DNA from: Sphaerochaeta associata
GTDB taxonomy: Bacteria; Spirochaetota; Spirochaetia; Sphaerochaetales; Sphaerochaetaceae
Assembly (NCBI RefSeq): GCF_022869165.1
Contig: NZ_CP094929.1
Coordinates: 1,116,001 to 1,180,000 of the forward strand
Length of the DNA: 64,000 nt
Direction: 5' to 3'
The notes under the pieces were generated by a model that did no database searches, was not told the DNA's origin, and saw only the letters and a list, made by a program, of their open reading frames with translations. Below, one piece after another: positions 12,514-36,365 of this stretch. The stretch's first letter is position 1; each line of letters starts with the position of its first letter. Position numbers and translations under genes: made by a program.

Positions 12514-13418
12514 GAGAGCAGCGGTGCGAGGATGAAATAACTGAGCACGCTGATCATAACCGATAGCGAAGAGGTGAAGGAAGCGAGTTTTCCCTGATCG
12601 GAGATTTTCTCGGTGAATGCCACCGAGCTGGTAGAGATCGGGGAGAACACCGCCAGAGCCAAGGTGACGCGGATGACCTGGTTGAACTGGGTGTGTTTGA
12701 GGAAGTAGTACGCAAACACCGTCGCCAAACCGTATCGGATGATGAGCAGCACGACCGATTTTTTTATCCATCCCTGCTGGAAACGTATGTCCAACATGAA
12801 CCCGATCATCAACATTGCGATGATCGGGTTTGCTTTTCCTATGGTCTGCATCCAATCCTGAAGGAATCGGGGAAGGGTGAGGTTGGCAAAGGAGAGACTG
12901 ATCATCACCAGATAGGTGATGAAAGGAACCGAGGTGAACAACTTCTTGAGTAGATCCTTGGTGTTGGGTTTTGATCCTCCTGCCGTAGTGGAAGCCAGCG
13001 AGTAGGTGAAACCGGTGGTCATCAAGGCATTGCCCAAATCGAAAAGTGAGGCTGCAACCAAGGCAGGGGCTCCGAAGAGCGCTTGGACGAAGGGGAATGA
13101 GAAGTTGCCCACGTTGTAGGTCGACCCGCACAACAGCGCATACCCCTTCAAGCCGTTCGACTCCTTTCTCATGCTGAAATAGGAGAGAGTCATCATCACC
13201 ACATTGGCCAGGATTCCATAGAATATGAGCACCAACAACGAGTAATCGAGTTTGAATGTGTTGAAGCTTGCCACAATTGCTGCAGGCAAGGTGATGTTCA
13301 ATGTGATTTTTGAGAGGGTCGCTCCTTCTCTTTCCGTAAAGAGCCCGATCCGCTTGAGCATATGTGCGAGGGCGATCAAAAAGAGAAAGAGTGCAACCTG
13401 TAACAATGAATGCGCCAT
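12510..13418 (-). CDS. AEC (auxin efflux carrier) family transporter
   Basis: 302 residues with about ten membrane spans in two inverted halves, typical of the AEC/BART group that moves malate, malonate or other organic anions. Conserved features include the [15 protein letters not shown] segment near the start and [11 protein letters not shown]-like [15 protein letters not shown]. The ATG at 13418 has AGGA eight bases upstream; one three codons earlier has none. The substrate cannot be deduced. Convergent with xylA, with overlapping stop codons. Confidence 0.8.
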
Positions 13419-17166: not shown

Positions 17167-17179
17167 GTTGGAGAGGTTG

Positions 17180-18004
17180 ATGAATAGAAGATTTCTTGTG
17201 ATATTGTTGCTCTGTCTCGTTGCCGTGACAGGGCTTTATGCCGCCAATGAAGAGGTTCGTAAGACACTTCCTCACCTTACCGAGGCAGAGTACAAAGCCC
17301 TTGAAGCAGGAGAGATGGTGTATGGACGTACCATCGACGGTGGAAGAATCAGCCAGTATTTTGTACAGGGGACGGAGGCCGCAAAGCGAGCTGTTTCGGC
17401 TGAGCAGGCAGAGAGTGGTTTTTCCATCGGTGCGGTAAGTTACATCCCCTATAGCGCAGCATTGAAAGCAAAACAACCGGTCGATCGTCAGTTGGCGATT
17501 TTTAATGCCATCAGGGCCATTTCCACTCAGGAGGGCCTGACATACATCTCCTGGCGCGCCGGCAATAAGGAGAAGGTTCTCATTGAAAGGTCCTCCTACA
17601 TGGAAGACTCAAAGAATTTGAATAACCTCCTGCCTGATCCGGTAGCAACCGTATTTCCCTATTCGGAAGAAAGTTTTGTCTATCAGCGGGACTCCTCGTT
17701 TGGAGGGAACAGGTACCTGCATACGTATACCAACACCGACGAAGAGATTTTTGTTGAGATCAGCAACATCAGCAATCTGAAGGTGCTTGGGTTGTTCACT
17801 GCCGTGAAATCGGGGCAGTTATCCATCAATATGGGAACCTATCAGTTGCAGGATGGTCTGTTGCTCGTTGCCCTTACCAGTGTACGGGACCGCAAGCCTG
17901 AGGTTTCTGTGCTTGGTCTTACCGTTGATTTGCCTTCTGCATTCAGAAGAAGGATCGTTGCACTTCAGAACTGGTTTATAGACCAGCTTGCCACCATAGT
18001 TTGA
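17180..18004 (+). CDS. Exported protein of unknown function
   Basis: 274 residues with a signal peptide (1-21, ending TGLYAAN). The mature part has no motif I can name. Short hydrophobic beta-like segments (for example ISWRAGNKEKVLIERSSY and NIKVLGLF-type NLKVLGLFTAVKSGQ) suggest a soluble periplasmic beta protein. The ATG at 17180 has GGAGAGG upstream. It lies 13 bases after the sugar transferase gene and 16 bases before the Wzi-like gene, so all three are probably one operon with a role in surface glycan. Confidence 0.7.
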   Translation: MNRRFLVILLLCLVAVTGLYAANEEVRKTLPHLTEAEYKALEAGEMVYGRTIDGGRISQYFVQGTEAAKRAVSAEQAESGFSIGAVSYIPYSAALKAKQPVDRQLAIFNAIRAISTQEGLTYISWRAGNKEKVLIERSSYMEDSKNLNNLLPDPVATVFPYSEESFVYQRDSSFGGNRYLHTYTNTDEEIFVEISNISNLKVLGLFTAVKSGQLSINMGTYQLQDGLLLVALTSVRDRKPEVSVLGLTVDLPSAFRRRIVALQNWFIDQLATIV

Positions 18005-18020: not shown

Positions 18021-20048
18021 ATGAAACATACCCGATTGCTTTGTATTATTCTGATCTGCTTCTTTGGAATGGCTTCCATTCCTGCTGCTGTGCATACCTC
18101 GGTTCCCGTAGACCATAGAGTGTATCGAATTCTTGATGTCGCCCAAATTCGCGGTCTTATTGACAATCAAATTGATGTCAAGCCGTATAGTGCAAGCAAG
18201 GTCATTTCCCTTTTGGAAACAATCGCCGGGCAACCTGAAGCTCTTCGAAAAGGGGAAGCAGAAGAAGTTGACGAGATTCTTAGCCACCTGTATACCACCT
18301 ATGGAACATCTCCCTCGTACGCTGACAAGCTCTTTTCTACTGGATTTCTGAGAACCTATGATGAAGAAAAGCAGCTTGGAGCTTCCATGGGAATTACCTT
18401 GGCTTCACAGCAAACGATTAGCTTGAATCAGAAAGGTGAATTTGACTCCAGAAATGGGGTAGTAGCCTTCTTAAAAGGGGATATCGGACCCAACATCTCT
18501 TTCAATATGGATTTTGGAATGGTTTTCGACCAACTGAACAACAGGGTATTCCTTCCTTCTGAGTTTACCATTCCAGGTGAAGGCTTCTACTTGTTGATGC
18601 TTGAAGGGGGTAAGCCCGCGTATACTATTCCTTTTGATAGCCTCTATACCAGCCTAACACTTACTCCTGAAGTAAGTGGGTCTTTCTTCGATGGTTCATT
18701 GCTCGTGCGTTGGGGAACACTCAAGCGGGACTGGGGCCCGGGTCTGAACAATCTTATGCTTTCAGCCGATGCCCGGAGTTTCGATGCCATAGAGCTGCAA
18801 TTGCTTCTGACTCCATGGTTCCGTTTCTCGGTTATGAATGGGTCACTTGGAAAGTTTTCTCTCAGGAATATTGATGGAGCTCCCTTTTTCTCTGACTTTT
18901 TTGGTGCAAAAGAAGACAGGGTAAACTATCGCTTCGACAATAATTTCAGTGCGCATCGTGTAGAGATTGATTTCACGAAAAACTTTACCTTCTCTATTTT
19001 TGAATCAACAGTCTGGCAGAAACGTTTTGAGTTGAGTTATCTCAATCCTGCAACCATTTATATGTTTCAACAGAACAGCATGGGAGACATCGATGATTTG
19101 TTTGCCGGTGTCGATGCTACCTTGACGCTTCCTTCAAAGGCACGTCTCTATGGTGCGATGGCCATGAATGAGATGAATGTGGTAGGCAACCCCATAACCA
19201 TGCTCAAGGCCCCCAGGAACATGTTTGCCTTCCAGGCTGGAGTAGTAGTACCGCTTCCCATCGGCACCTTCTCATCGTTGACCTTCCAATGGACCTATAT
19301 CGGGCCGTTTGTGTATACACACTATCCGATGAGGAAGTTGACGGGTACTATTGATACTACATACCGACCTAATGGCTTCGTTGTAGATAACGCTAATCCA
19401 ATTGTCATTACTACCGATACCGGTCGAACGGTGACGTATGATGGGACATCCATTACGCTTTCTAAAAAAGGTCCTGACGAGGAAGAGACTATTGGCATTG
19501 CTCCCGCGGATGTAGCATCTTGGTACAGTAATGATACCTACACCCTGACCAAAGACGGCAGAACCATGATTGAGAAGAAAGGGAATGATTTCCTCATCTA
19601 CGAAACCTATTCAGAAACTGCATATGTCAACAAAGGTGAGAACCTCGGCTATCCGCTTCAACCCAACTCCCAGGAGTTCCTGCTTCAGCTTGACCTCGGG
19701 CTTCCCAAGGGTTGGACAACACAATTTCAGGCCAAGTATCAGGCCCGAAGCGGCCAGTATGGTTATTCACTTGACCAGTTCATGCTGTACGCAATCGATG
19801 ACCAATATCCAGAGAAGGATTTCTGGAACCATGTGTTCAACCATACCCTGTCGATATTGGTCTCAGGAACCAAGAAGCTGGACGGCATGCCCATCTCTCT
19901 TACTGCTTCCTACCGCTTTATCGCCGACTGGGAGCGGCCGATAGACGAAAGTACTGAAAGGTTCGATGGCTTGACTACAATATTTGGAGCATGGCAGGAT
20001 CCTGTCTTCAATCACATTGTACAGGTGGGAGTGAAGATTTTTTATTGA
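18021..20048 (+). CDS. Wzi-like outer-membrane beta-barrel protein
   Basis: 675 residues. A signal peptide (1-24) is followed by a helical stretch (to about 110) and a long beta-rich part. RWGTLKRDWGPGLNNLMLS matches the WGPG signature of capsule-assembly Wzi proteins, which anchor polysaccharide at the outer surface. The C-terminus (HIVQVGVKIFY) is amphipathic and aromatic, as in barrels. Residues 450-545 form an insertion rich in Thr and Asp with no counterpart I know. The location after a glycan-initiating transferase supports the role. The Wzi assignment is by motif and context only. Confidence 0.7.
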   Translation: MKHTRLLCIILICFFGMASIPAAVHTSVPVDHRVYRILDVAQIRGLIDNQIDVKPYSASKVISLLETIAGQPEALRKGEAEEVDEILSHLYTTYGTSPSYADKLFSTGFLRTYDEEKQLGASMGITLASQQTISLNQKGEFDSRNGVVAFLKGDIGPNISFNMDFGMVFDQLNNRVFLPSEFTIPGEGFYLLMLEGGKPAYTIPFDSLYTSLTLTPEVSGSFFDGSLLVRWGTLKRDWGPGLNNLMLSADARSFDAIELQLLLTPWFRFSVMNGSLGKFSLRNIDGAPFFSDFFGAKEDRVNYRFDNNFSAHRVEIDFTKNFTFSIFESTVWQKRFELSYLNPATIYMFQQNSMGDIDDLFAGVDATLTLPSKARLYGAMAMNEMNVVGNPITMLKAPRNMFAFQAGVVVPLPIGTFSSLTFQWTYIGPFVYTHYPMRKLTGTIDTTYRPNGFVVDNANPIVITTDTGRTVTYDGTSITLSKKGPDEEETIGIAPADVASWYSNDTYTLTKDGRTMIEKKGNDFLIYETYSETAYVNKGENLGYPLQPNSQEFLLQLDLGLPKGWTTQFQAKYQARSGQYGYSLDQFMLYAIDDQYPEKDFWNHVFNHTLSILVSGTKKLDGMPISLTASYRFIADWERPIDESTERFDGLTTIFGAWQDPVFNHIVQVGVKIFY

Positions 20049-20238: not shown

Positions 20239-22044
20239 ATGGGTAATCTGAGAAATAAGGTTGTTCTTCTCTTTCTTGTTTTCTTGGTTGGCTTTGGAGG
20301 AATTCTCCAAGCAGGCGAGGCACTGATAACAACCGATCAAGTAACCGGCTATGGAATTGCTGACTATGAGTTCTCTGTAAAAGGAAAAACCACCAAATTT
20401 GCTCTTCGCAATGCAATCGTTCCTTCAGAGGGAGATGTTGTGTACCCAACCAAGGAAGCCTTCATCGGCGCCCTTGATGCGAAGAGGCAGACACTGGTTA
20501 ACAAGCAGTTGTTCTTGAATGTGGAGTATGACTATACCTTTACATCCTTCATCGATGGCATCGCCTATTACTCGGTTACCTACTTTGTGGAAGACTCAAA
20601 CACCCTGTTGGTGCTTCCCTACCCGAAATTCGACAATGATAAGACTGGGTTTCTCTTTGGCCTGAAAGCAAAGGATACCAACTTGCTCGGCACGTTCGGA
20701 GAACTCAACGCTACCGTATATACCTCGCAGAATGACGGAACGCTTCAGAGCTGGGACAACCGCGAAGACCACCTTGAGCTTGATATTTCCAAATTCACTC
20801 TCTTCGATACTTCCATCAGCCTGAACTTCGTATATGAACGGAGAAAGACAACCAATCCCTTGGGAATCTACGACTACGACCTCGATTGGACGGGAATCAA
20901 GTTTCTAGGGACCACGTTGAACATCGAAACGGAAGGGAAGTACGATCCTACTCTCCCGGCTCAAGTCTTCAACTATGATGTGAACTGGACAGGTTTGAAG
21001 CTTCTTGGTACAAGCATCAGCCTCGCCACATGGGCGGATCTCAAACCTGCCACCGATCTTTCCAATCCAGATCCTACGCTGTATGGATTTTCATTCAGTT
21101 ATGGTCCCTTCGACCAGAATGAGGGACGCTACACCCTCAGCTCCTTGGTCCAATGGGAAAGCAACATTACCAATTTCACCACCGAAACCACACTGGCCCA
21201 GCATGACTTGAAGTTCTTCACCCGGCCTCTCTCCTTCAACCTCAGGGTAGAAACAAACCAGAAAACTACTTCGGAAACAGTCGATAATGTACTACTCAGT
21301 TCTACGCTGGGAACCACCTTTCGGTTGCCGCTGGGCCTGACGTGGGGTACTTCGGTTACAGGAGCTGTGAACTTTGTACAAAACCAGAATCCGCTGCAAC
21401 GCTATTTTGAGTATGTGAACACCCTTGGCAACGGCGGGCGCATCAACTATCTGTCCAGTCTGCACAAGTTCCGCAGGGGCTTGGTATTCTCCTTCAAGCA
21501 TGTGTATCGTGATTACCCCCAAGCTGAATATTCCCACCTCGACTATTGGTATATGGAAAGCAGTACAACCTGGTTCCCGTTCATTGCCTGGAGGTTCAAT
21601 CCATCCATCAGGTTGACCGGATTCTATGCAGAGGGTATCAAGTACAGATTCCTGCCTTCAGATGAGGATTTGAATGTTGCCGACTACTTCAGGGGTTACC
21701 TCTCACGCTCGAGTAAAATTTCTGAAGTTAATACCCAACTCTCCTATGGTGGAGTCGTGAATCTGAACATGACCGTTGACTTCATCGATTTCGGCTTTGC
21801 CAAATCGTATGCCAACCCATTTCTCGATATCGGAGTATTCAGCAACCCGTCGGAGCCCGACGGCCGTACCGTCCTTGCCAGTGCCGGTATGGAAGGGTGG
21901 GGCGTCCTAAAGCGCTTCCCAAGCCATCCGATGCGCGTAGCCTTGGGATTCAATCTCTTTGATGTATACGAGGCGATGCAGGGCCGTATGGAGCCGATGG
22001 ATGTGGAGTGGGAACTGTCGGTCAGCTTTGAACTCTATTTCTGA
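20239..22044 (+). CDS. Omp85-like outer-membrane protein
   Basis: 601 residues. A signal peptide (1-25) is followed by a POTRA-like segment (about 60-125: TKEAFIGALDAKRQTLVNK, ending YYSVTYFVED). The start of a BamA/TamA-type barrel comes next (LPYPKFDNDKTGFLFGLKA, then TNLLGTFGELNATVYTS) and the C-terminus ends in Phe (LSVSFELYF). Two adjacent segments resemble each other (DYDLDWTGIKFLGTTLNIET and NYDVNWTGLKLLGTSISLAT), an internal duplication of a barrel hairpin. A dedicated export or assembly role is likely. GAGGAC precedes the ATG. The 3' end overlaps the convergent RND gene by 23 bases. Confidence 0.65.
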   Translation: MGNLRNKVVLLFLVFLVGFGGILQAGEALITTDQVTGYGIADYEFSVKGKTTKFALRNAIVPSEGDVVYPTKEAFIGALDAKRQTLVNKQLFLNVEYDYTFTSFIDGIAYYSVTYFVEDSNTLLVLPYPKFDNDKTGFLFGLKAKDTNLLGTFGELNATVYTSQNDGTLQSWDNREDHLELDISKFTLFDTSISLNFVYERRKTTNPLGIYDYDLDWTGIKFLGTTLNIETEGKYDPTLPAQVFNYDVNWTGLKLLGTSISLATWADLKPATDLSNPDPTLYGFSFSYGPFDQNEGRYTLSSLVQWESNITNFTTETTLAQHDLKFFTRPLSFNLRVETNQKTTSETVDNVLLSSTLGTTFRLPLGLTWGTSVTGAVNFVQNQNPLQRYFEYVNTLGNGGRINYLSSLHKFRRGLVFSFKHVYRDYPQAEYSHLDYWYMESSTTWFPFIAWRFNPSIRLTGFYAEGIKYRFLPSDEDLNVADYFRGYLSRSSKISEVNTQLSYGGVVNLNMTVDFIDFGFAKSYANPFLDIGVFSNPSEPDGRTVLASAGMEGWGVLKRFPSHPMRVALGFNLFDVYEAMQGRMEPMDVEWELSVSFELYF

Positions 22045-24346
22045 TTTTCTCGAGTGCCATCATCAAGGCCGGGAGTATGAACAGGGTTGCTGCAGTGGTG
22101 ACCAATAGGGCGAATGAGAGCAATAAGCCGAAATATTTAACCGGGATGAAACTTGCGAACAGCAACATCATAAGGCCTGCAATCAAGGAGATGCTGGAAA
22201 GCAGGATGGGTCTGCCTGTCTCTTCCAATGTTTGGGAGAGCAGCACTGCATACTCCATGTTTGGATGATCCTTCTGCCGCAGTTTGAATCGTATGAGAAA
22301 ATGAATTGCTGCATCGACACCAACCCCGATGGTAATCGATGCAAAAATCACCGTCACCACATCGAAGGGTATATTGAATAGAAACATCAACACATAGTTG
22401 CACATGATTCCCGTCATGGTGGGGATGAGGGCGAGCAATCCCATCAAAGGACTGCGAAATTGCACCGTCACCAAGAGGAATACGAGAATCAAGGATATGA
22501 TCAGCGAGCGGTCTTGGTCAGCCTTGATGGTGTTTCCCATGCGCAAGGCATCCACTCCGATACCCCAGTCATCGATGGTGATGCCTTCAGGCAAAAGATG
22601 TACTCCCTCTTGGATGGAAGCCTGAAGATTCCGTACGCTTTCCAAGCTCTCCCAACTTTGGTAGCGGCTGTCGTAACTGCGTACCGTGATGGTAATCCTC
22701 GCTCCATCGTCACGAATCAAGGAGGAGAGCATGGGAGTTTCAAATTGGGATGAAGCAACCTTGAGCAGTCTGGAGAGCATGAGTATGAGACCCGGAGTAT
22801 CCGGAATTCCATACGTTCCTTGGTATATCTCATTGAGGGCGGCTGTATAACGGGGAAATGAGAACAGATGGGTAATATCCTCATTGGTGGCAAGCAGGTG
22901 GCTTTCAAAAGCAAAAACCTGTTTCAGCACCTCGGGCTTAAAGAAGTAATCCTGTTCATCGTCCGGGGCTGTGAGGGTGATGTAATGGGGATCCGAACCG
23001 CCGATTTTTCTGGCGAATGCTACAGAACGCTGAATCAGAGGATCGTCCTTTGGGAAGTATGTCAGGTAATCGGTATCCAGTCTCACGTCATCCCTTACAG
23101 CAACAAACCCGATCAGTAACAATGCCATCAGTACCAATGCAATGGGCCAGGCTCGTACAAATGCAATGCTGCAGCGGTGCAACGCCTTGGAGATCCTGCC
23201 GTGGGTGAATCGATGTAGATGCTGTTGCTTGGGATTCGGCAGGATGGCAAGCAGTGAAGGAATATAGATGAGTGACAAGAGGGCACAGAAACTGATGCCG
23301 ATTGAAACGGCAAGCCCGAGCTCTCGGAAAGCTTGCAACTCGCATAGAACGAGGCTGAGAAAACCGACGATGGTAGTCAGGGATGCTCCGAATATTGTCT
23401 TGCTGATTCTTCCAACCGCCAGGATGATCCGCTCTTCCTTCTCTTCCATGGTATTATCGGCTTTGATGGTCTGAAAATATTCGCTGAGAATATGGATTGC
23501 ATAGGAAGAGCCCAGGATGAGAACCATCGAAGGAACGATGATGTTGACCACTGTCAGCTCATAGTCCAGCAGAACCATCACGGCCAATGTCCAGAGCAAC
23601 GCGATTACAGACAAGGAAAACGGAATGATTACCGCACGCTTGGAACGGAAGGCAAGGAAAAACATAAGGACGATGACAAGAAGGCAGAGTAAAAGCAATC
23701 GCTCCAGGTCGTAGGTCAAATACTGCTGGACACGCTCTTCGAAGAGCGGAGTTCCGACCAGTGAGATACTGCCATATGCACGTAGACGATCCAACGTATG
23801 TGCAATCGCGTCAAAAATCTCGTTACTGTATTCCGTATCCGGTTGAAAGGAGAGTTGTATCAGCAGTGAATCCCCGTCTTCAGTGGAGAGAAGGCCTCTG
23901 GCGATTCTGTCTGTACGCAGTCGCTGTGCGAACAATGCTGAACTCTCTTCCGTGAAAGGCTCATTGTTCTTGTTCGGATTCAGGGCAATACTTGCAAGGC
24001 GGGTTCCCTTTTTCTGGAAGGTGATGAATGAGAGTGCCGAGAGAGGAGGCCTGAGCCCCTCTATGGCCTCAAGCTCTGCAAGGACTCCTTGCAGGGCATT
24101 CAACGCCTGCATTGAAAAAATTGCGTTTCCTTCAAACAGGCAGTATACATCCTTTGAGTCTTGAGTCGTCGTGGAAAGAACATCCTCTGAGATTTCGAGG
24201 TGTTCAGGTTTCGGAGGGAGGAGATTGATGTATTCGCTGTTGAGTCGGAGCTGAGGAAGCAGAATGATGGCGAAGAGTGTACAAACAAGTACTATGGCAA
24301 GGAACAACAGCTTGTAGCGCAGAATTGTTTTGATAAGCAGCTGCAC
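22022..24346 (-). CDS. RND/MMPL family exporter, first copy
   Basis: 774 residues with the RND plan: one N-terminal span, a periplasmic domain (about 35-210), five spans, a second periplasmic domain (about 420-600) and a final five spans. TM4 carries GSSYAIHILSEYF and TM10 carries IGVGVDAAIHFLIRFK, as in the COG1033 group that includes hopanoid and lipid exporters. GTG start with GAGGAG upstream. It follows two MGDG-synthase-like glycosyltransferase genes in the same direction, so a glycolipid is a likely cargo. It also has its own promoter. Confidence 0.85.
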   Translation of the reverse strand: MQLLIKTILRYKLLFLAIVLVCTLFAIILLPQLRLNSEYINLLPPKPEHLEISEDVLSTTTQDSKDVYCLFEGNAIFSMQALNALQGVLAELEAIEGLRPPLSALSFITFQKKGTRLASIALNPNKNNEPFTEESSALFAQRLRTDRIARGLLSTEDGDSLLIQLSFQPDTEYSNEIFDAIAHTLDRLRAYGSISLVGTPLFEERVQQYLTYDLERLLLLCLLVIVLMFFLAFRSKRAVIIPFSLSVIALLWTLAVMVLLDYELTVVNIIVPSMVLILGSSYAIHILSEYFQTIKADNTMEEKEERIILAVGRISKTIFGASLTTIVGFLSLVLCELQAFRELGLAVSIGISFCALLSLIYIPSLLAILPNPKQQHLHRFTHGRISKALHRCSIAFVRAWPIALVLMALLLIGFVAVRDDVRLDTDYLTYFPKDDPLIQRSVAFARKIGGSDPHYITLTAPDDEQDYFFKPEVLKQVFAFESHLLATNEDITHLFSFPRYTAALNEIYQGTYGIPDTPGLILMLSRLLKVASSQFETPMLSSLIRDDGARITITVRSYDSRYQSWESLESVRNLQASIQEGVHLLPEGITIDDWGIGVDALRMGNTIKADQDRSLIISLILVFLLVTVQFRSPLMGLLALIPTMTGIMCNYVLMFLFNIPFDVVTVIFASITIGVGVDAAIHFLIRFKLRQKDHPNMEYAVLLSQTLEETGRPILLSSISLIAGLMMLLFASFIPVKYFGLLLSFALLVTTAATLFILPALMMALEKIRNRVQS

Positions 24347-24374
24347 CGTACTCTCCTCGGCGTATAGTATACTA

Positions 24375-24403
24375 ATAGTAGAGAGTCATCATGCTGTTGT
24401 AAA
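24375..24403 (-). promoter_or_regulatory. Promoter of the first RND gene
   Basis: On the minus strand: TTTACA, 17-base spacer, TACTAT, in the 65-base gap after the glycosyltransferase gene. Confidence 0.6.
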
Positions 24404-24411
24404 GGTCCGGT

Positions 24412-25560
24412 TCATACCGATGCAATGCCAAACTTTGTTTTCCTTACTTCAGCAGCGTCGTCGAGAATCTGCCTCGCAAAGGCGTCGCTGTCGAAGACCA
24501 AGGGAAGCTTCGCAAAGGCTTGCAGCATCGCTTCCTGCTGTATTGGATCCTCGCTATAGGCTTGGAGAATATCCACCTGCCTGGTTACGTCGTTCTCCAC
24601 CCAACCGACGTTTCGACGGTTGAAGAAAATGGTGGTGGGCCAGGCCGCATAGAGCAGGCTTGAGATAAGAAAGGGCCGTTGCAGGAACAATGATTCCATC
24701 AAGGCATTTGCTCCTGCTTTCCCAGCCTGTACATCACAGGCACAGATATAGTCCTGAATGTTCTTTACAAACCCGGGCGTGTGCAATGGGAAATCGGGAT
24801 GGTTCTCCTTGAATGCCTTGTAATGCAGTTTTGTACTGCCGCTGAGCTCCCCGACAGTAATTATCTGCCAGTTCAGATTACGTTCAACCACTTCATCCAG
24901 GAAATCGGTGGTACCGATGCCTTCGCCGCCTAGGTTAAGCAACACAGTAAAACAGTCGTCGAGACCCAGTTTTTTCCGTGCATCCTGCTTGCTTAACGGC
25001 TTGGACTGCATGAGCTCGGTTTTCAGTGGGAAGGGGCAGATACGGATGGTATGCTCGGGTTGGCCCGCACGAATGGCAAGCTCCCTGCCGATTTCCGTGC
25101 ATATGTAGAGCCGGTCGAGATGTTTGTTTATACCAAGATTAGGAGTGAAAACCACATCCGCCGCATATTCAAATACCGGCACCTGCAGTTGCAGCAAGTC
25201 TACGAGCGGCTGGATTATTGAAGCTGCAAGGAAATGGGGTACCACGATAAGATCGGGTTTGACCTGTTCGTACCAGTCTTGGAAATCCTTGACGGCATGA
25301 GAATGGGTGGCTACATACCGTACCCTTTTTGCATTTGCTGCAGAGTCGTTTCTTGCATTGACCTTTGCTTCCATTTTGGGAAAATGCAGCTGAAGACGCC
25401 AGTTGTACTTGCTGATCCAATTGATCATGGGCGCGCCGACTGTTGCAAACAAATTCTCTACAACAGTAGTATGGCCGAGTCTCTGGAATGCATCGGAAAG
25501 TGCCCGTGCCGGTGTAATATGCCCTTTCCCTGCATCCACATACAAAAGTGCTATATGCAT
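24412..25560 (-). CDS. MGDG-synthase-like glycosyltransferase (GT28), first copy
   Basis: 382 residues. The N-terminal MGDG synthase motif is LLYVDAGKGHITPARAL. The C-terminal GT-B half has LLNLGGEGIGTTDFL and GKAGANALMESL, the region that binds nucleotide sugar. Members add a hexose to diacylglycerol at the cytoplasmic face of the membrane. The ATG at 25560 was chosen by alignment with the second copy; it has no Shine-Dalgarno sequence, and TATTCT lies six bases upstream. It lies 24 bases after its paralogue, so the pair arose by tandem duplication. Confidence 0.82.
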   Translation of the reverse strand: MHIALLYVDAGKGHITPARALSDAFQRLGHTTVVENLFATVGAPMINWISKYNWRLQLHFPKMEAKVNARNDSAANAKRVRYVATHSHAVKDFQDWYEQVKPDLIVVPHFLAASIIQPLVDLLQLQVPVFEYAADVVFTPNLGINKHLDRLYICTEIGRELAIRAGQPEHTIRICPFPLKTELMQSKPLSKQDARKKLGLDDCFTVLLNLGGEGIGTTDFLDEVVERNLNWQIITVGELSGSTKLHYKAFKENHPDFPLHTPGFVKNIQDYICACDVQAGKAGANALMESLFLQRPFLISSLLYAAWPTTIFFNRRNVGWVENDVTRQVDILQAYSEDPIQQEAMLQAFAKLPLVFDSDAFARQILDDAAEVRKTKFGIASV

Positions 25561-25566
25561 GAGCAA

Positions 25567-25595
25567 AGAATAGGAGAAAATCAGTCAATCTGCAA
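25567..25595 (-). promoter_or_regulatory. Promoter of the first GT28 gene, likely leaderless
   Basis: On the minus strand: TTGCAG, 17-base spacer, TATTCT, then six bases to the ATG. It overlaps the end of the upstream paralogue. Confidence 0.4.
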
Positions 25596-26709
25596 GAGCT
25601 TGCATCTCATTGAGCAGAAGGTTGACGAATAGATCGCTGCTGAAAGAAAGCGGCAGGGAAGCAAGCCTTTCCTGCATGAGTCGCTGAGCCTGTTGATCCT
25701 CAGCAAAGTTCTTGAGAGTAATCATTTGTTGCTTTGGTCTACGTATCACCCATCCTACCTTGTATTCATCAAAGAAGGCCTGGGTATCACGTGCTGCATG
25801 CAACAGCTCATTGATCATAAATGGTCGTCCCAGCGAGAGGGACTCCATCAAGGCATTTGCCCCGGCCTTCCCGGCCTGTACATCACAGGCGAGCATGTAC
25901 AGGCCGATATTGGAAACAAAACCTGGAGTATGAATGTTCATCCCCGGCAGTTCTCTGGCAAGCGCATGGAATCGCAGCTTGGTGTGTTCAGATAGGTTTC
26001 CCACGACAACCACCTGCCAGGCAAGTTTATTTTTGATCAATTGCTTTATCAAGGCGGTTGAACCGATTCCCTCTCCTCCGAGATTCAACAAAATGGTGAA
26101 CCGGTCTTCAAGACCCAGACTTTGTCGTGCTTGACTCTTGGAAAGATGCTCCATCTGCTGGATTGAAGTCTGCAGCGGAAAAGGCGAGAGCCGCACCTGG
26201 TTTGACGTATAGCCCTGGTTAAGGAGATTCTTCACTCCAAGCTCGGTTGGAATGAACAGGCGGTCGATTTTGTGATGATACCCGGCCTTCGGATTATTGA
26301 ATACATCGGCGGCGTAGACGAAGACGGGAACCTTGAGCTTGGCCTGTTTGGCGATGGTTGCGATGACCGAGCCGCCCAGAAAATTGGTGCAGAGAATGAA
26401 ATCAGGTTTGGTTTGCTCATACCAAGCGAGGAAATCACGGTTGATATGCAGTCTGACCGACAGGAACCGCACCACGGATGCAATGAAATGAGTATCCATC
26501 AACCGATGGTAAAACCGTTCAATGCGTGGGTGATGGAGCATGAATCGCCACTCATGTTTGCAAAACCACTGCCAGAAGGGGGCTCTCAGCACATCGAACA
26601 TATCAAGCAGACATGTCTGATGACCTGCACGTTCCATTGCATCCGTTACGGCTTTGGCAGGAATATAATGTCCCTTTCCTGCATGTACATAGAGCATTGC
26701 ACCAAGCAT
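25585..26709 (-). CDS. MGDG-synthase-like glycosyltransferase (GT28), second copy
   Basis: 374 residues, a paralogue of the neighbouring gene. The N-terminal motif is MLYVHAGKGHYIPAKAV; the C-terminal half has LLNLGGEGIGSTALI and GKAGANALMESLSLGRP. The start at 26709 aligns with the first copy. Longer upstream readings would cross the divergent GT4 gene and show no homology. Two tandem copies may act in sequence, adding a first and second sugar to a diacylglycerol, or may use different sugars. Leaderless start likely (TATGAT six bases upstream). Confidence 0.82.
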   Translation of the reverse strand: MLGAMLYVHAGKGHYIPAKAVTDAMERAGHQTCLLDMFDVLRAPFWQWFCKHEWRFMLHHPRIERFYHRLMDTHFIASVVRFLSVRLHINRDFLAWYEQTKPDFILCTNFLGGSVIATIAKQAKLKVPVFVYAADVFNNPKAGYHHKIDRLFIPTELGVKNLLNQGYTSNQVRLSPFPLQTSIQQMEHLSKSQARQSLGLEDRFTILLNLGGEGIGSTALIKQLIKNKLAWQVVVVGNLSEHTKLRFHALARELPGMNIHTPGFVSNIGLYMLACDVQAGKAGANALMESLSLGRPFMINELLHAARDTQAFFDEYKVGWVIRRPKQQMITLKNFAEDQQAQRLMQERLASLPLSFSSDLFVNLLLNEMQALAD

Positions 26710-26715
26710 GGATGT

Positions 26716-26744
26716 ATCATAACCAATAAGCCGGACCACAACAA
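26716..26744 (-). promoter_or_regulatory. Promoter of the second GT28 gene, likely leaderless
   Basis: On the minus strand: TTGTTG, 17-base spacer, TATGAT, then six bases to the ATG, with no Shine-Dalgarno sequence. The clearest example of this arrangement in the window. Confidence 0.6.
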
Positions 26745-26760
26745 GAGCTGATTTTGTTTG

Positions 26761-26789
26761 TTGCGTGGAAGGGACCCTCGCGGTATAGT
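26761..26789 (+). promoter_or_regulatory. Promoter of the GT4 gene
   Basis: TTGCGT, 17-base spacer, TATAGT, 20 bases before the GTG start; AAGGAG lies between. Confidence 0.6.
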
Positions 26790-26809
26790 GCAACAAGGAG
26801 TGATGCGCT

Positions 26810-28030
26810 GTGAAGATACTCATCACCACGGACTTTTTTGTGCCTTCGGTAACCGGGGTGTCGACCGTAGTGGTCAATGAAATGCTCATGCTCCCTTTCC
26901 AAGGGCATGAGGTGCGGCTTCTAACCATCGGCGATGCACGCATTTCCTACTTCCGTGACGGTGTGTATCACATGAAGGCCAGCAGAATCAAACCATTCCC
27001 CGATTCCTATATGACCTTCTCTTACAGAGATCCCCTGTTGGGCGACATCCTTGCTTGGAAGCCCGATGTAATCCACTCCAACAACGAGTTCTTCTCCATG
27101 GGGTATGCCAGGCGAATACAGAGAGTGCTTCACATACCGCTGCTTCATACCTGTCATACTGACTTTACCCGCTACGATGAGCAACAGAGAATCCGACATA
27201 CCCTGTGGGATGCTGCAATGGCGGCTGTCGTCAAACGAAGGGTGCGGTTTTGCAGTCTGCTTATCAGCCCCTCAGCCGCCCATAAAGCGATGCTTGAGCG
27301 CTATCGAATATCCAAGCCGATCGAGGTATTGCCAAGCGGCATAGAACTCAGCCGGTTCGGTCTGAGCCTCCCTGAAGAGACAAGAAACAGAATTCGAAGC
27401 GAATATGGCTTTGGTGTGGAGCACATTGTGCTGATCTCAGTCTGCCGATTGGCTTCAGAGAAACGAGTGAACCGCACCATTGATGCCTTCTTTCTCCTCT
27501 CCCTGCTTGAGCCTTCGGTTCGCCTGCTTATTGTTGGAGGAGGGCCTAAACAGGAGAGCCTGAAGCAGCAGGTGAGGGATTTCGGCTTGGAAAATCGTGT
27601 AATTTTCACCGGTACGGTTCCATCCGAATCAATACACCGCTTGTATCAGGCCAGTGATCTATTCGTCTCCTCGTCAATACGGGAGTCACAGGGATTGGGT
27701 TTCGTGGAGGCAATGGCAAGCGGCCTTCCTGTCTTGCTCAGAGAGGACGGCTCTCTTGGTTTCTCAATCGAGGAATCCGGATGTGGGTTTCTCTATCACG
27801 ATGAAAAAGGGTTTGTATCCATTCTCTCCTCTCTCATCCATAATCCCTCTCTCATCAGGCAGATGGGGGAGCGGGCGAAAAAGGAGAGCGAGCGTTTCAA
27901 CCTCGAACGTTGGGCTTGTGCCCTATCTGCGTTGTGTGTTCGTTTGCATGCCGATTTTTCGCTGAAAGAAAGTAACCAAGCGAATCACCGAAGGCATGAT
28001 CAGCAGGGTGGAGAGCATACAGTTCAATAG
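26810..28030 (+). CDS. Glycosyltransferase family 4, diacylglycerol glucosyltransferase-like
   Basis: 406 residues, GT-B fold. The acceptor half includes MKILITTDFFVPSVTGVST and HTCHTDFTRYDE. The donor half has ISVCRLASEKRVNRTIDA and the retaining GT4 motif RESQGLGFVEAMASGLP with its paired Glu. It resembles the enzymes that make monoglucosyl-diacylglycerol in mollicutes and Gram-positive bacteria. GTG start with AAGGAG. It is divergent from the GT28 pair. The last 36 codons are antisense to the second RND gene and read as an unstructured tail (KESNQANHRRHDQQGG), suggesting a stop codon that moved downstream. Confidence 0.82.
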   Translation: MKILITTDFFVPSVTGVSTVVVNEMLMLPFQGHEVRLLTIGDARISYFRDGVYHMKASRIKPFPDSYMTFSYRDPLLGDILAWKPDVIHSNNEFFSMGYARRIQRVLHIPLLHTCHTDFTRYDEQQRIRHTLWDAAMAAVVKRRVRFCSLLISPSAAHKAMLERYRISKPIEVLPSGIELSRFGLSLPEETRNRIRSEYGFGVEHIVLISVCRLASEKRVNRTIDAFFLLSLLEPSVRLLIVGGGPKQESLKQQVRDFGLENRVIFTGTVPSESIHRLYQASDLFVSSSIRESQGLGFVEAMASGLPVLLREDGSLGFSIEESGCGFLYHDEKGFVSILSSLIHNPSLIRQMGERAKKESERFNLERWACALSALCVRLHADFSLKESNQANHRRHDQQGGEHTVQ

Positions 28031-30361
28031 TGCCATGCTCATGAGGCTTCCGAAGTAGCGAACCGGGGTATAGGAGGCAAACAGGAACATCAGCATGCCG
28101 CCGACGATGGAGAGGGTGGTGAGAATGATGGGTCTGCCGGTTTCCCGTATGGTCTCTGAAAGAAGCGACTCAACCGTACGGTCGTCGATACCGAGCTTGT
28201 TCTTGTAACGGATCAAGAAATGGATGGCATCGTCGATGCCCGCCCCGACTGCAATCGATCCGAAACTTACCGTGATCATATCGAAGGGGATTTGGAAGAA
28301 ATACATGAAAATGTAGTTGGCCATGACACCGCTGATGATGGGAATCAGGGCATACAGGGCCAGGGAGACCGATTTGAAAGCGAAGAGTACCACCAAGAAC
28401 ACTAATAACACACTTGCGTATGTGCTCTTCATCTGATCCGACAGCAAGGCTTCAGAGAAGTGTAAACTTCTATGCGGCTCCCCGTCGAGTGTAACGATCG
28501 TCCCATTTGGCAACAACGGCAGCAGGGATATTACGGTATCCTCAATTCTTTTTGCACTTCCAATGGTTCCAAGGGCTTGTTCCTTGGCGTCATAGTTCTG
28601 CAGGATGATGGTCAGTTTCGTCCCTTCAGGATTCATGATGGTTCCCATATCCTCCTGGCCTTGTCGGCTCATCAGGATGACCATACGGCTGAGCAGGTTG
28701 AGCAGACCGTCCGATTCGGGAATACCCTCTTCCTGGCTGTAGACGGAGTTGGCGAAGGCGACATAAGACGCAAAAGAGATGATATGGCGGACATCGTCGC
28801 TTGATTGCTGCACCGCTTGCTCGAATGCGTAAACATCCTGCAGGTTCCCGCTCTTCAGGAAGAATTGTGATTCACCCTCAGGTGCTTCCACGGTAATGAG
28901 AAAGGGGGTGTCTCCTCCCATTTTCTGTGCAAAACGCCGGCTGGTCTCACCCAGAGGTTCCTTCTTCGGCAGATAGGACATGTAGTTGGTATTTACCGGG
29001 ATATAGTCTCGTGTAGCGAAATACCCGATGATGACGAGCAAGAACACTACAACAAGCAGAGGCCAAGCATGTTTGACCGAACGATCGATGGATATGACCA
29101 GCTGTGCAAGATACCCTTTCTTATAGGTTTTTATCTGCTCCTGCTTGGGGGGTACCACCAGACTCAGCATGGCCGGAAGGTAGGTTGATGCAAGAACAGC
29201 GCAATAGCTTACCCCGATCCCCACTGCAATGCCGAACTCCCTAAGCGCCGGCGTTTTGGAAAAAAGCAGGCTCATAAAACCGATGACAGTGGTTATGCAT
29301 GCAAAAACGATGGTACGCAGAATTTTTTGGGTGGATTGAATCGGATTCAAGCCTTTTGCATAATCCGTATAATACTCGCCGATGACATGGATGGCGTAGG
29401 AGGAACCCAGGTTGAGTACCATGCAAGGCGTGACAATATTGATGATGGTCAACGAGTAGCCGAGCAGGTGCATCGTACCAAAGGTCCATATAATACCTAT
29501 GAGAGACATGGAGAAGGGAAGGAGCACACTTCGTTTGGCTTTGAAACTGAGATAGTAGATGGTCAGGATTGCGATGAAGCAGAGCGAGAGTAGAATGCTC
29601 AGGTCGCGTCCGAGGTAGTGCATCAAGCGATTGGTGATAATCGCTCCGCCGTTGATTGATACCGTGATGTCTGCCTCTCTGAGCTCATCAAGCAAATTGG
29701 AAAGTTCAGCTTCCATCTGATGTGTCAGTGCAAAGGACTCGAAGCTGAATAACATCGCATCCAGATTTTCACTGACCAAGTAGTTTTTCACCAACGGATC
29801 GTTCTCAATACGCTGCTTGAGAAGTTGTGCCTGCTCCTCGCTCCACTTGTTCTGCATTGAACTCGAACCAAACGGGACGGTGACCAAGCGGCTGCCTTTT
29901 TTTTCGAATGTCACAAAATCGAGCACTGAGAAACTTTTACTGAGATACCCGGTGTCGGTGAGCTTCTGCATCACCGTCGTGATGCGGTTAAGCGTCTCCG
30001 CTTCAAACAGGGCAGGGCTCTCCACCATCACCAGGTACGAAGTGCTGTAAGCGAGGTTGTCTTCAGGCATCGGAGGTTCAACCTCAGCGCTGGCTACCAG
30101 ATGGGAGCCGAGGGCGGTAGTGTCAAGTACCATTGTTTCTGGAATAAAGGACTCGACAAGGGCCGAACCTTGCTGGTCCATATACTCGCCTGAACCTCCT
30201 TGATAGGACACCCCCTTCCCTGTTTCGTTCATGAGGGAGTTGTAATCTGCATCGAGGTGCAGGAATGCTGCGTGGTATAAGAAGAAGGCTGTTATCAGAA
30301 GAATCACAATCAATGTACTTTTGCTGTGCTTTCCGACAAAGACAAGTAAACTATGTTTCAT
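27923..30361 (-). CDS. RND/MMPL family exporter, second copy
   Basis: 812 residues with the same twelve-span RND layout as the 22022-24346 gene and clear similarity in TM4 (LGSSYAIHVIGEYY) and TM10 (VGAGIDDAIHFLIRYK). The first periplasmic loop is longer by about 40 residues. The ATG at 30361 follows GGGAG and is preferred to an upstream start. The C-terminus overlaps the convergent GT4 gene by 108 bases. The likely cargo is a lipid or glycolipid, by family and neighbourhood. Two different exporters close together suggest two cargoes or two steps. Confidence 0.85.
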   Translation of the reverse strand: MKHSLLVFVGKHSKSTLIVILLITAFFLYHAAFLHLDADYNSLMNETGKGVSYQGGSGEYMDQQGSALVESFIPETMVLDTTALGSHLVASAEVEPPMPEDNLAYSTSYLVMVESPALFEAETLNRITTVMQKLTDTGYLSKSFSVLDFVTFEKKGSRLVTVPFGSSSMQNKWSEEQAQLLKQRIENDPLVKNYLVSENLDAMLFSFESFALTHQMEAELSNLLDELREADITVSINGGAIITNRLMHYLGRDLSILLSLCFIAILTIYYLSFKAKRSVLLPFSMSLIGIIWTFGTMHLLGYSLTIINIVTPCMVLNLGSSYAIHVIGEYYTDYAKGLNPIQSTQKILRTIVFACITTVIGFMSLLFSKTPALREFGIAVGIGVSYCAVLASTYLPAMLSLVVPPKQEQIKTYKKGYLAQLVISIDRSVKHAWPLLVVVFLLVIIGYFATRDYIPVNTNYMSYLPKKEPLGETSRRFAQKMGGDTPFLITVEAPEGESQFFLKSGNLQDVYAFEQAVQQSSDDVRHIISFASYVAFANSVYSQEEGIPESDGLLNLLSRMVILMSRQGQEDMGTIMNPEGTKLTIILQNYDAKEQALGTIGSAKRIEDTVISLLPLLPNGTIVTLDGEPHRSLHFSEALLSDQMKSTYASVLLVFLVVLFAFKSVSLALYALIPIISGVMANYIFMYFFQIPFDMITVSFGSIAVGAGIDDAIHFLIRYKNKLGIDDRTVESLLSETIRETGRPIILTTLSIVGGMLMFLFASYTPVRYFGSLMSMALLNCMLSTLLIMPSVIRLVTFFQRKIGMQTNTQRR

Positions 30362-30419
30362 GATGCTCCCGAATTGTATGGTAGAGAAAAAGTATAGCAC
30401 AGAGTCTACATAAGAAAAA

Positions 30420-30440
30420 CCCACTTGATTACCAAGTGGG
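30420..30440 (-). terminator. Rho-independent terminator after deaD
   Basis: The eight-pair stem CCCACTTG/CAAGTGGG with a five-base loop is followed on the minus strand by TTTTTC. It lies eight bases after the deaD stop codon. Confidence 0.85.
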
Positions 30441-30448
30441 CTTCGATT

Positions 30449-32323
30449 TTAGTCGTTGTATCTTCGTCTGCTGCTGGGACCTTTTTTCGGGAAAGATCCT
30501 TTCTTGGCCTTGGAAGTGTTGTACTTTCCATGAACCCGTCCGACACGGTCATCGGCAAAAGCAGGTCGGCCTTCGTAACGATCTTCACCGCCATAGGAGT
30601 CCCTACCGTACGGCTGGTAGTCGTCACGGTCTCCTCGTCTGGGTCTGCGTTCCGCATAGGATGGACGCCTTTCCTCCCCACGGGTTCTTACCGAGAGGTT
30701 TTTCCCGTTGGGATTGTCGGGCTTTGCCCTGGTAATGATGGGCTTCCCTTCCGGACCTTGGTCGCCGAAGGTCTTCAGGATTCGCTCGGCAACCTGAAGC
30801 GGGGCGCTGACAAAAGAGAACTCCTCACGAACGGAAACATCCTGGATGTCCCTGTCTTCGGCCCCCACCTGCTCGATGAGGTAGTCGACCAACATTCGCT
30901 TGTCAAGTCCGTCCTTCCTGCCGCGTGCAATGAACAGGCGGGTGAATCCGCTCTCCTCGTCACGTACAGGTCGGTCGCCCCTTCGATCATCCCTTCCGCC
31001 ACCGATGTGCTGGTACTTGGAAACATCAAGCTGGTCTTTGTAGAAGTGATCCAAAAGAGCCGCAACTACGACTTCGGGCCTTTTACCGTCCAACAACTGT
31101 TCGGCGATCGGCAGGAAGTGGCTGCTCTGTGCATCTTCATCGGAGAGGGCGGTAAGCCGGCTGAGAATTCTCGCCCGCTTGATCCTGATGATCTCACTTG
31201 CTTCAGGGACGGATTCGCGTCTGATATCAGTCTTTGAGACTTTCTTGATGAAGGAGAAGCGCTTGAACTCACGGGGAGCTACAAAAGTGATGGCGATGCC
31301 GGTCTTTCCTGCTCGTCCGGTTCTTCCTACGCGGTGGATGTATGCATCCGGATCTTCGGGCAGTGAGAAGTTGATGACGTGGGTGAGATCGGAAATATCG
31401 ATGCCACGTGCCGCTACGTCGGTGGCAACAATAATGCTGATGGTTCTCTCACGCATTTTGTGGAGGATCAGTTCTCGCTGTTTCTGGGAAAGATCTCCAT
31501 GCAAAGGTTCGGCATCGTACCCACGGTCTATCAGCTTTCTGCCGATTTCATCACATTGGACCTTGGTTCGGCAGAAAATAATGCCGTAGAAACTCTCTTC
31601 CATGTCGATGATGCGGGTAAGAGCCTCCAACTTGTCGGACTCCTTCACCTCAACATAGATTTGGTCGGTGAGGTTGCTGGTCATGGTATCCTGCTGGATC
31701 TTGACCAGATGCGGATCACGCATGAACCGTTCGGCAAGCCTCTGTATCGGCTGGGGCATGGTCGCGGAGAAACAGAGCATGCGCTTTTCAGCGGGTGTCT
31801 GTTTCAGTACTTCTTCGATATCATCGATGAAACCCATATCGAGCATTTCGTCTGCTTCGTCGAGTACCATGAACTTGAGATGCTCGAGGTGCAGGGAACC
31901 GCGTCTGAGGTGGTCGAGGATACGACCGGGAGTTCCAACAACGACATGCACGCCCCGCTTGAGTTTACGCAGTTGCAGTTCCATGGAGGCACCGCCGTAT
32001 ACAGCGGCAATTTCCAACCTTCGGTCTCCCTTCAGGGAGTTGATCTCTTCAGCGGTTTGTACAGCAAGTTCACGAGTGGGTGCGAGAATGAGTGCTTGGA
32101 CCTGATACAGTGATGGGTCTACAAATTCGAGAATAGGGAGGCCGAAAGCGGCGGTTTTACCGGTTCCGGTTTGTGCCTGGCCAATAACGTCGACCTGATC
32201 CTTGAGGAGCAGCGGTATGCATGCGCTCTGAATCTTGGTTGGTTCTTCGAAGCCTTTCGCTTTAATGGCGGCAATGGTTTGTGCGGACAGCCCTAGGTCC
32301 GCAAAGTTTGTTAACTCTGACAT
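30449..32323 (-). CDS. deaD: DEAD-box ATP-dependent RNA helicase (DeaD/CsdA type)
   Basis: 624 residues. RecA core motifs in order: Q motif (EPTKIQSACIP), Walker A AQTGTGKTAAFGLP, PTRELA, VLDEADEMLD, SATMPQ, ATDVAARGID and HRVGRTGRAG. A DbpA-type RNA-binding domain follows (about 460-540), then a basic Arg/Gly-rich tail (from about 545). It unwinds RNA in ribosome assembly and mRNA turnover, often with cold induction. AGGAG precedes the ATG, and a small hairpin (TCGGT/ACCGA, 32354-32368) sits in the leader. A monocistronic unit. Confidence 0.93.
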   Translation of the reverse strand: MSELTNFADLGLSAQTIAAIKAKGFEEPTKIQSACIPLLLKDQVDVIGQAQTGTGKTAAFGLPILEFVDPSLYQVQALILAPTRELAVQTAEEINSLKGDRRLEIAAVYGGASMELQLRKLKRGVHVVVGTPGRILDHLRRGSLHLEHLKFMVLDEADEMLDMGFIDDIEEVLKQTPAEKRMLCFSATMPQPIQRLAERFMRDPHLVKIQQDTMTSNLTDQIYVEVKESDKLEALTRIIDMEESFYGIIFCRTKVQCDEIGRKLIDRGYDAEPLHGDLSQKQRELILHKMRERTISIIVATDVAARGIDISDLTHVINFSLPEDPDAYIHRVGRTGRAGKTGIAITFVAPREFKRFSFIKKVSKTDIRRESVPEASEIIRIKRARILSRLTALSDEDAQSSHFLPIAEQLLDGKRPEVVVAALLDHFYKDQLDVSKYQHIGGGRDDRRGDRPVRDEESGFTRLFIARGRKDGLDKRMLVDYLIEQVGAEDRDIQDVSVREEFSFVSAPLQVAERILKTFGDQGPEGKPIITRAKPDNPNGKNLSVRTRGEERRPSYAERRPRRGDRDDYQPYGRDSYGGEDRYEGRPAFADDRVGRVHGKYNTSKAKKGSFPKKGPSSRRRYND

Positions 32324-32449
32324 GGATCTCCTGATATATATGTGGGTGGATTATCGGTTGAGGACCGAAATAAACACAATAAGCCTGTCTAGTCTATACA
32401 AATGAGCAAGTTGTTGCAAGACAGAAACATCCCAAATGCCTAAATTCGC

Positions 32450-33490
32450 CTACCAACGATTATAGACCTGTTCTGCAAAACCCGATAGCCTGTCGAGTTG
32501 CAAGAGTGTGCCATCGTCCAAGATGCAGGTTCCGCTGAAATACCCGAACACTTGGTGTTGATCGCTCTTGATCACCAGGAAATTCGTTTTGGAAGAGCGG
32601 TCGACAAGGGGATCGAATACAAGATTGAGCCTTCCTTCTGCATCCCTGACCGTCCAAGGATTAAGAAAATTATCCTGATCGAAGCTGAAGACAACCTCAC
32701 CCAGCTTGTGTATGCAATTGTTATAGATGACGGCATTCTCACTGGCTGGGGAGCGGTCGGAGAAGCCGTAGCCGAGATTCAGGCCGAACGGAATGTTCTC
32801 AAGCAAGCCGGAGGCACTTGCCCAATACCATGTGTTCTGGTAGGTCCACCTGCCTCTTCCCCAATCGAGAACCCCCCAGGCCTCCCCAAGCAGGAGCTGC
32901 TCGGTTTCCATGCCCCTGCGTATGGTGCCGGTTGCCTTGAGACAGTTGATTTTCTCATTGAGATAAAAGGCCTTGCGATTTTCCTTCCAGCTGGTTGCAA
33001 TATTGAGGCTCTGTGCACCCTCAGCTTCTGTGAGGGTGATGTCGTAATCCAATCCCACCGACCCGTCAGGAAGCTCCAGCGTTGGGCAGGCTGCCATGAT
33101 GTGGCGTTCCCGTCCACGCTTGATGAAGGCCAAACGAAGGTTTTTGTTGGCCCACGAGACCTGGCTGTCCTCGGTGGAGGATGGTGCGAGCCCTATCGAA
33201 CCCCTGGGAAAGAACGCCAGGGCATCCGTTTGGCTGACCTTGGCGGCATTGAAGTCGATATAGCTGAGAGCAAACAGTGCTGCATACCCCAAGTCGCTGA
33301 TGGTGGCCGTCACCGCATATCCTTGTTGTTGGTTGATTACTGCATAGTAGTCCCACTCCTTGATTGCAAGGGCGCCGCCTTTGACCATGCTTCGATCGTA
33401 CTTCCAATAAGGATGGCGGGCCCAGCCTTCCTGGATAATATGACCCTTCTTGTCGAGTAGAGCTTGTACCTGCCTGATTTCTGTCTGCAT
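32450..33490 (-). CDS. DUF2804 family protein
   Basis: 346 residues, matching DUF2804 in length and by its Trp-rich blocks: GHIIQEGWARHPYWKYDR at the N-terminus and LGEAWGVLDWGRGRWTYQ in the middle. The fold is probably a double beta-barrel of the lipocalin-like/tocopherol-cyclase type, which suggests binding of a hydrophobic molecule. No enzymatic activity is established for the family. No signal peptide, so cytoplasmic. It follows the phosphoesterase gene by 23 bases and is probably in its operon. Confidence 0.75.
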   Translation of the reverse strand: MQTEIRQVQALLDKKGHIIQEGWARHPYWKYDRSMVKGGALAIKEWDYYAVINQQQGYAVTATISDLGYAALFALSYIDFNAAKVSQTDALAFFPRGSIGLAPSSTEDSQVSWANKNLRLAFIKRGRERHIMAACPTLELPDGSVGLDYDITLTEAEGAQSLNIATSWKENRKAFYLNEKINCLKATGTIRRGMETEQLLLGEAWGVLDWGRGRWTYQNTWYWASASGLLENIPFGLNLGYGFSDRSPASENAVIYNNCIHKLGEVVFSFDQDNFLNPWTVRDAEGRLNLVFDPLVDRSSKTNFLVIKSDQHQVFGYFSGTCILDDGTLLQLDRLSGFAEQVYNRW

Positions 33491-33513
33491 GCCTGCACCC
33501 CCTTTTCTCTATT

Positions 33514-34587: not shown

Positions 34588-34632
34588 ATAGCAAGTAGCC
34601 TAACACGGAACAGCCTTGACTTCCATATGAAA

Positions 34633-34656
34633 AAAGCTGGCACGAATGCCAGCTTT
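34633..34656 (-). terminator. Rho-independent terminator upstream of the phosphoesterase, after the PpiD-like gene
   Basis: The ten-pair stem AAAGCTGGCA/TGCCAGCTTT with a four-base loop is followed on the minus strand by TTTTTT-type sequence. It ends the PpiD-like transcript. Confidence 0.85.
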
Positions 34657-34677
34657 CCATCACTTGGGTTTCTCTGA

Positions 34678-36243: not shown

Positions 36244-36365
36244 GATAAACCTCTTTCTCCGGAGCATTTTCCGCATGAGCGGACAGTCTTATGAAAAATA
36301 GCATTTCACCTAGCTACTGTCAATGAATTGCTGTATAAAAGCAAAAACGGTCATTTTATTTCGTA

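Follow-up and report, generated by a model that had tools for sequence, protein, structure and literature searches.

The subject of this analysis is a cluster of six genes coding for putative lipid glycosyltransferases, inner-membrane exporters and an outer-membrane barrel in Sphaerochaeta associata, a member of a free-living and cultivated genus of spherical spirochete relatives. The genome consists of one contig of 3,554,903 bases (3.55 Mb; NZ_CP094929.1, assembly GCF_022869165.1), and the window, i.e. the whole stretch of DNA analysed, comprises 64,000 nucleotides of it (positions 1,116,001 to 1,180,000 of the forward strand). Gene coordinates refer to the window and are given with refined starts. 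The core of the island covers positions 20239-30361. It begins with the gene of a likely one-POTRA Omp85-like barrel (20239-22044, plus strand, 601 amino acids), after which the minus strand carries HAE3-A, an MMPL/RND exporter (22022-24346, 774 amino acids), and two glycosyltransferases of the MGDG-synthase/UgtP-like kind, GT28a (24412-25560, 382 amino acids) and GT28b (25585-26709, 374 amino acids). The remaining two genes are a GT4 glycosyltransferase (26810-28030, plus strand, 406 amino acids) and a second MMPL/RND exporter, HAE3-B (27923-30361, minus strand, 812 amino acids). GT28b, GT28a and the closing HAE3-A point in the same direction with gaps of 24 and 65 base pairs (bp), and they probably form a single transcript. 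The barrel and HAE3-A genes converge and share 23 bp at their ends, and so do GT4 and HAE3-B, whose shared stretch is 108 bp long (27923-28030). The latter overlap is long and kept, measuring 48-111 bp at ten of the eleven loci of the genus that were measured, with one exception (L081) where a gap of about 40 bp separates the two genes.

A preliminary description of this DNA, made from the letters alone, had named two tandem MGDG-synthase-like enzymes, a diacylglycerol-glucosyltransferase-like GT4 enzyme and two different MMPL/RND exporters of the lipid-export group, with no MlaD, LolA or Lpt component among them, and this account of the gene content is borne out. The GT28 profile matched exactly two proteins of solved structure: 9wde, a processive diacylglycerol beta-glucosyltransferase (E 8e-24), and 4wyi, the Arabidopsis MGD1 (E 7e-21, covering profile positions 3-372), with whose sequence the GxGH, GGEGxG and AGxxxxxE blocks align. 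The two GT28 enzymes share 45% identity, and in an alignment with 18 relatives they have 49 invariant columns in common. GT28b reaches 24.4 bits with MGDG_synth (PF06925), just below the cut-off of 25, GT28a has no match in Pfam, and the diglucosyl-diacylglycerol synthase model NF010135 gives 64.0 and 68.5 bits for the two enzymes, against a cut-off of 500. The island enzymes are therefore like UgtP/YpfP and MGD1 over most of the protein, including the aligned GxGH and donor-site blocks, but differ in lying far under the NCBIfam cut-offs and in forming two diverged tandem copies whose acceptor and sugar are predicted. The comparison supports a diacylglycerol-glycosyltransferase type, for which a transfer of sugar to diacylglycerol is predicted. 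The assignment of the GT4 enzyme is less certain: alpha-monoglucosyl-diacylglycerol synthase (NF049988) is its nearest family, the best of 38 with 126 bits (well below the cut-off of 400), and its matches in the PDB are other GT4 enzymes. Outside the genus, GT4 genes next to five GT28 loci were compared as well, and the same family came out on top for all five, with 219.7 bits at L125, 207.7 at L127 and 108-120 at L130, L157 and L178.

Both exporters match MMPL (PF03176) with E values of 1.8e-39 and 6.6e-35, and HAE3 (TIGR00921) is the best NCBIfam model and the nearest family for each, with 232.5 and 207.5 bits, below the curated cut-off of 351.9. The HpnN model (TIGR03480) gave partial matches of 105 and 116 bits, its cut-off being 752. 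The structure predicted for HAE3-B (pLDDT 82.8) shows an RND transmembrane fold and a pair of periplasmic domains. It aligns with MmpL5 at Z 42.1 and a root-mean-square deviation of 3.9 over 670 residues, in a tie with many RND proteins, NCR1, Patched, MmpL4 and MmpL5 among them; this predicted fold tells nothing about cargo. The proton relay of RND proteins involves charged residues in transmembrane segments 4 and 10; Asp710 in segment 10 of HAE3-B is invariant in all 28 sequences, and an Asp in segment 4 is found in none of the 28. The segment 4 signature GSSYxIH was rejected as a hallmark of the island pumps, as the segment 4 Asp is also missing from the genome's remaining two HAE3-type proteins, which do have the one in segment 10. 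One further HAE3 gene of the genome stands in a separate cluster with TetR, LolA-like and DUF1302 genes (L108 5661-10671; G000:C1:1022000-1040000); the setting of the island pumps is different, since this gene has a LolA-like partner, encoded outside the island, and they have none.

HpnN is a carrier of hopanoids and MmpL proteins carry mycobacterial glycolipids. The island pumps belong to the RND superfamily in common with HpnN and with the sterol transporter BstA. The BstA gene is reported to adjoin the enzymes making the presumed lipid (PMC10942540), as the island pump genes do, and MmpL12 is reported as an exporter of lipooligosaccharides in mycobacteria (PMC12507525). The mycobacterial MmpL exporters are alike in being RND pumps with a link to glycolipid export, and the predicted fold of HAE3-B matches MmpL4 and MmpL5; they act, however, in another kind of envelope, whereas the island pumps are linked to GT28 and GT4 enzymes of the diacylglycerol type.

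The barrel gene has no family match in Pfam or NCBIfam. Its predicted model is of low confidence (mean pLDDT 63.9) and consists of a beta-alpha-alpha-beta-beta domain at residues 37-119 followed by the barrel. In Foldseek all 50 matches listed were chains or complexes of the Omp85 superfamily (BamA, TamA, FhaC, CdiB, SAM), the best E value being 8e-9 at template-modelling (TM) scores of merely 0.2-0.3. The marks of Omp85 proteins are an RG motif in loop 6 and an FxDxG strand motif, and in the barrel Arg485-Gly486, Phe528 and Asp530 are invariant in 16 of 16 sequences. VIA-align mixes Omp85 proteins and TonB receptors in tied positions, which leaves the label of an Omp85-like protein with one POTRA, as judged from the model, likely but unproven. 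Profile alignment (hhalign) with the genome's own BamA gave no signal (2%), nor did alignment with Wzi-like families (2-3%), and no match to the barrel profile was obtained among PDB sequences. Of the earlier statement that an Omp85-like barrel overlaps the end of an exporter gene, the overlap with HAE3-A stands as a fact and the name of the barrel as a likelihood. As a general trait the overlap fails, because G018 (the closest relative with the whole neighbourhood) and the genomes with one GT28 have no HAE3-A to overlap; a fixed barrel/exporter gene pair was likewise rejected, many relatives keeping the barrel without HAE3-A. An Omp85-superfamily barrel clustered with an inner-membrane transporter is also found in the BBJ23-29 cluster of Borrelia; there the barrel reportedly lacks POTRA, and its companions are a LolA-like protein and an ABC transporter (PMC13078400), in contrast to the island, where one POTRA is predicted and the barrel stands with glycosyltransferases and RND pumps.

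LpxC was matched in 0 of 60 genomes, the window genome included, with 4 of 14 controls positive, and MlaD in 0 of 22 genomes of the genus, again with no match in the window genome, whereas 8 of 14 other Spirochaetia were positive. As the genome has no match to either protein, glycolipids plausibly occupy the outer leaflet.

Conservation was assessed in 25 other genomes of the genus, which are related and partly incomplete (contig ends cut the locus in G005, G007, G012, G013, G020, G021 and G024), and the counts were made by hand, those for the two pumps among the matches listed. GT28 is matched in 22 of the 25, an HAE3-B-type protein in 21, the barrel in 19, an orthologous GT4 in 15 and HAE3-A in 6; a GT4 match of G021, located on another contig and 32% identical, was left out. 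In 17 of the 21 genomes with HAE3-B this gene adjoins an orthologous GT28 or GT4, which argues for clustering beyond chance; of the remaining four, G006 and G014 have a different GT4, G004 has none and G013 is cut by a contig end. HAE3-A is confined to genomes carrying a pair of GT28 genes, 7 of 12 of which have it, as against 0 of 11 with a single one (the genomes are related). Of the 19 genomes with the barrel, 18 have it within the neighbourhood, G006 being the exception. G012 resembles the window more closely (96-100% identity) than G018 does (76-86%), and its 3.3 kb piece of the locus carries the start of HAE3-A. Conservation of the gene set had been proposed as a check, with scattered orthologues speaking against the idea; the neighbourhood is indeed kept and its orthologues are not scattered, nevertheless it is not a fixed unit, the orthologous GT4 being absent in some genomes of the genus. 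In the place of HAE3-A, locus L075 of the one-GT28 group has a PTS_EIIC_2 membrane protein (11526-12560), and an open reading frame of equal size stands there at seven sister loci, the family having been tested in L075 only.

Beyond the genus, GT28 was searched in one genome per species, and 80 of the 86 matches, giving 75 loci, were used, divided by record titles and gene order into 15 of the Sphaerochaeta type and 60 outside; several outside loci share one genome and many are shortened by contig ends. Judged by title, all 75 are from spirochaete records. HAE3 is present at 35 of the 75 loci and at 23 of the 60 outside ones (within 1.5 kb in 12 of the 60), and a GT4 scoring above 200 bits to the window GT4 at 7 of the 60. 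There are 25 HAE3 genes in 922 kb of GT28 flanks, about 2.7 per 100 kb, as compared with a genome-wide density of about 0.12 per 100 kb, which is a rough sum (at least 192 matches in about 166 Mb) obtained with a different query and threshold. The enrichment of HAE3 near GT28 is thus large against the genome background, while its slope with distance is shallow, the whole neighbourhood being rich in envelope genes. Counted by genome outside the genus, GT28 and HAE3 showed no clear association: 9 of 34 genomes have a GT28 match, and HAE3 is strongly matched both in genomes of this kind and in others.

The island is read here as an outer-membrane glycolipid locus of a spirochete lacking lipopolysaccharide, where diacylglycerol glycolipids would be made, pumped and then delivered by Lpt and/or the barrel, and a probability of about 0.5 is given to this reading. 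On the cytoplasmic side of the inner membrane, GT28a, GT28b and GT4 would attach one or more sugars to diacylglycerol or to a lipid akin to it. The two HAE3 pumps, presumably proton-driven, would lift or flip the glycolipid to the periplasmic leaflet or into the periplasm, a step modelled on MmpL with mycobacterial glycolipids and HpnN with hopanoids, and the last leg to the outer membrane may fall to an Lpt-type bridge whose genes lie elsewhere, to the Omp85-like barrel with its single POTRA, or to both. The gene content, its conserved clustering, the enzyme and transporter families, the lack of LpxC and MlaD matches and the presence of LptF/LptG are established by the analysis, whereas the lipid cargo, transport direction, energy source and pump-barrel link are inferred, the transport steps from the protein families. 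A dedicated glycolipid synthesis-and-export route had been suggested for the island before, and the kept neighbourhood, the enzymes of diacylglycerol type and the missing LpxC and MlaD matches speak in its favour. A self-contained route is only partly supported, since LptF and LptG are present in the genome and Lpt has been proposed for this task in other spirochetes; for the same reason the idea that the exporters hand over cargo by another path is unsupported as stated, and the island need not be the entire route. The parts are of known kinds, and their combination in a diderm with no LpxC or MlaD match is unusual. Among the open-licence papers listed in the literature searches, none was found to deal with this cluster in Sphaerochaeta.

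Several observations weigh against the proposed glycolipid locus. None of the island's genes could be recognised as coding for a partner subunit of the pumps, for instance one similar to BstB or BstC, and lipid data for S. associata were not found in the literature searched. No HAE3 occurs in the DNA examined around 37 of the 60 outside GT28 loci, and in the 2.5 kb nearest to GT28 the HAE3 density of 3.7 per 100 kb exceeds that at greater distances (2.1-2.5) only modestly. G006 and G014 have HAE3-B and the barrel without any GT28 match, the different GT4 lying near HAE3-B there. In G018 HAE3-A is missing and the glycosyltransferases are kept; in Sphaerochaeta halotolerans 4-11 (G003) HAE3-B is a decayed remnant between helicase and GT4 (L077 6279-6844; pieces matching residues 5-39, 634-676, 700-742 and 744-802), with GT28a, GT4 and the barrel all full length. 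Neither pump is therefore indispensable. These two genomes are at the same time natural partial knock-outs, by which the question of how glycolipids reach the surface becomes directly testable through lipid analysis.

The strongest competitor for the transport step is Lpt itself. LptF/LptG matches were obtained in 35 of 36 genomes searched, the window genome having both at about 0.5 Mb from the island, together with one LptD_N-like match barely above cut-off. In published work Lpt is proposed as the glycolipid route of Borrelia (PMC10353723) and Treponema pallidum (PMC8407342), i.e. for the same presumed cargo in the same type of envelope free of lipopolysaccharide; as an ATP-driven bridge encoded outside the island it differs from the pumps. 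The enzymes could make outer-membrane glycolipids that Lpt alone transports, the HAE3 proteins having another cargo (fatty acids, toxic amphiphiles) and a merely historical linkage, with which the dispensability of HAE3-B in S. halotolerans agrees. This is rather unlikely in view of the enrichment of HAE3 around GT28 loci across Spirochaetales and of HAE3-A presence following the second GT28; moreover, LptD was not found with the single model tried (LptD_2, PF19838), a weak test in which only Bacteroides of 14 controls was positive. The opposite extreme, an Lpt-independent, proton-driven line in which HAE3 passes diacylglycerol glycolipids straight to the one-POTRA barrel and so builds the outer leaflet of a diderm without lipopolysaccharide or MlaD, seems the least probable of all. 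The proposals of these two papers (PMC10353723, PMC8407342) for placing glycolipids on diderm surfaces free of lipopolysaccharide rest on Lpt, and the locus supplies candidate enzymes and a second transporter class.

It is also conceivable, with a low probability only slightly above that of the direct pump-to-barrel line, that the lipid made here serves to anchor a larger surface glycan (compare the anchor of lipoteichoic acid), which Wzi-like barrels hold at the surface, HAE3 moving the anchor or the finished chain. A polyprenyl-phosphate sugar transferase (15793-17166, plus strand; PF02397 and CoA_binding_3) and a Wzi-like outer-membrane barrel (18021-20048, plus strand; PF14052 at E 0.027 only) adjoin the island, as does a GT2 enzyme in relatives. 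Wzi-like barrels related to this one recur near GT28/HAE3 loci, being present at 22 of the 60 outside loci (HAE3 also at 11 of these), one of which, L133, has Wzy_C and GT2 genes beside HAE3. No chain-polymerising enzyme was seen among the genes tested, however, and the sugar-transferase unit is on the opposite strand and may be independent. The role of the Omp85-like barrel can be judged separately: that it is an accessory insertase of outer-membrane proteins (TamA-like) with no tie to lipid export is somewhat less probable than an even chance, and compatible with the other explanations. BamA and TamA are the best Foldseek matches, the gene comes after that of the Wzi-like barrel on the same strand and the barrel is retained where exporters were lost, whereas its staying in the glycosyltransferase/exporter neighbourhood argues against this role.

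The sugar-transferase gene opens a neighbouring plus-strand unit, and it is followed by a DUF6675 protein (17150-18004, plus strand); both are neighbours kept in relatives, associated with the island and not part of the core. On the HAE3-B side the island is flanked by a DEAD helicase (30449-32323, minus strand), between which and HAE3-B a hairpin resembling an intrinsic terminator (30416-30444, minus strand) is seen as a consensus match only. DUF2804, a SurA-like chaperone and sometimes the DEAD helicase remain linked to GT28 in distant Spirochaetales (window 30449-36276; L122, L128, L132, L146, L147, L167, L170, L185). At L139 (5968-8125) genes similar to M78 peptidase and to phospholipase D/cardiolipin synthase lie upstream of GT28, and gene pairs of similar sizes occur in L128, L130, L132, L138, L149 and L157, the larger gene of the L157 pair matching Wzi-like barrels instead.

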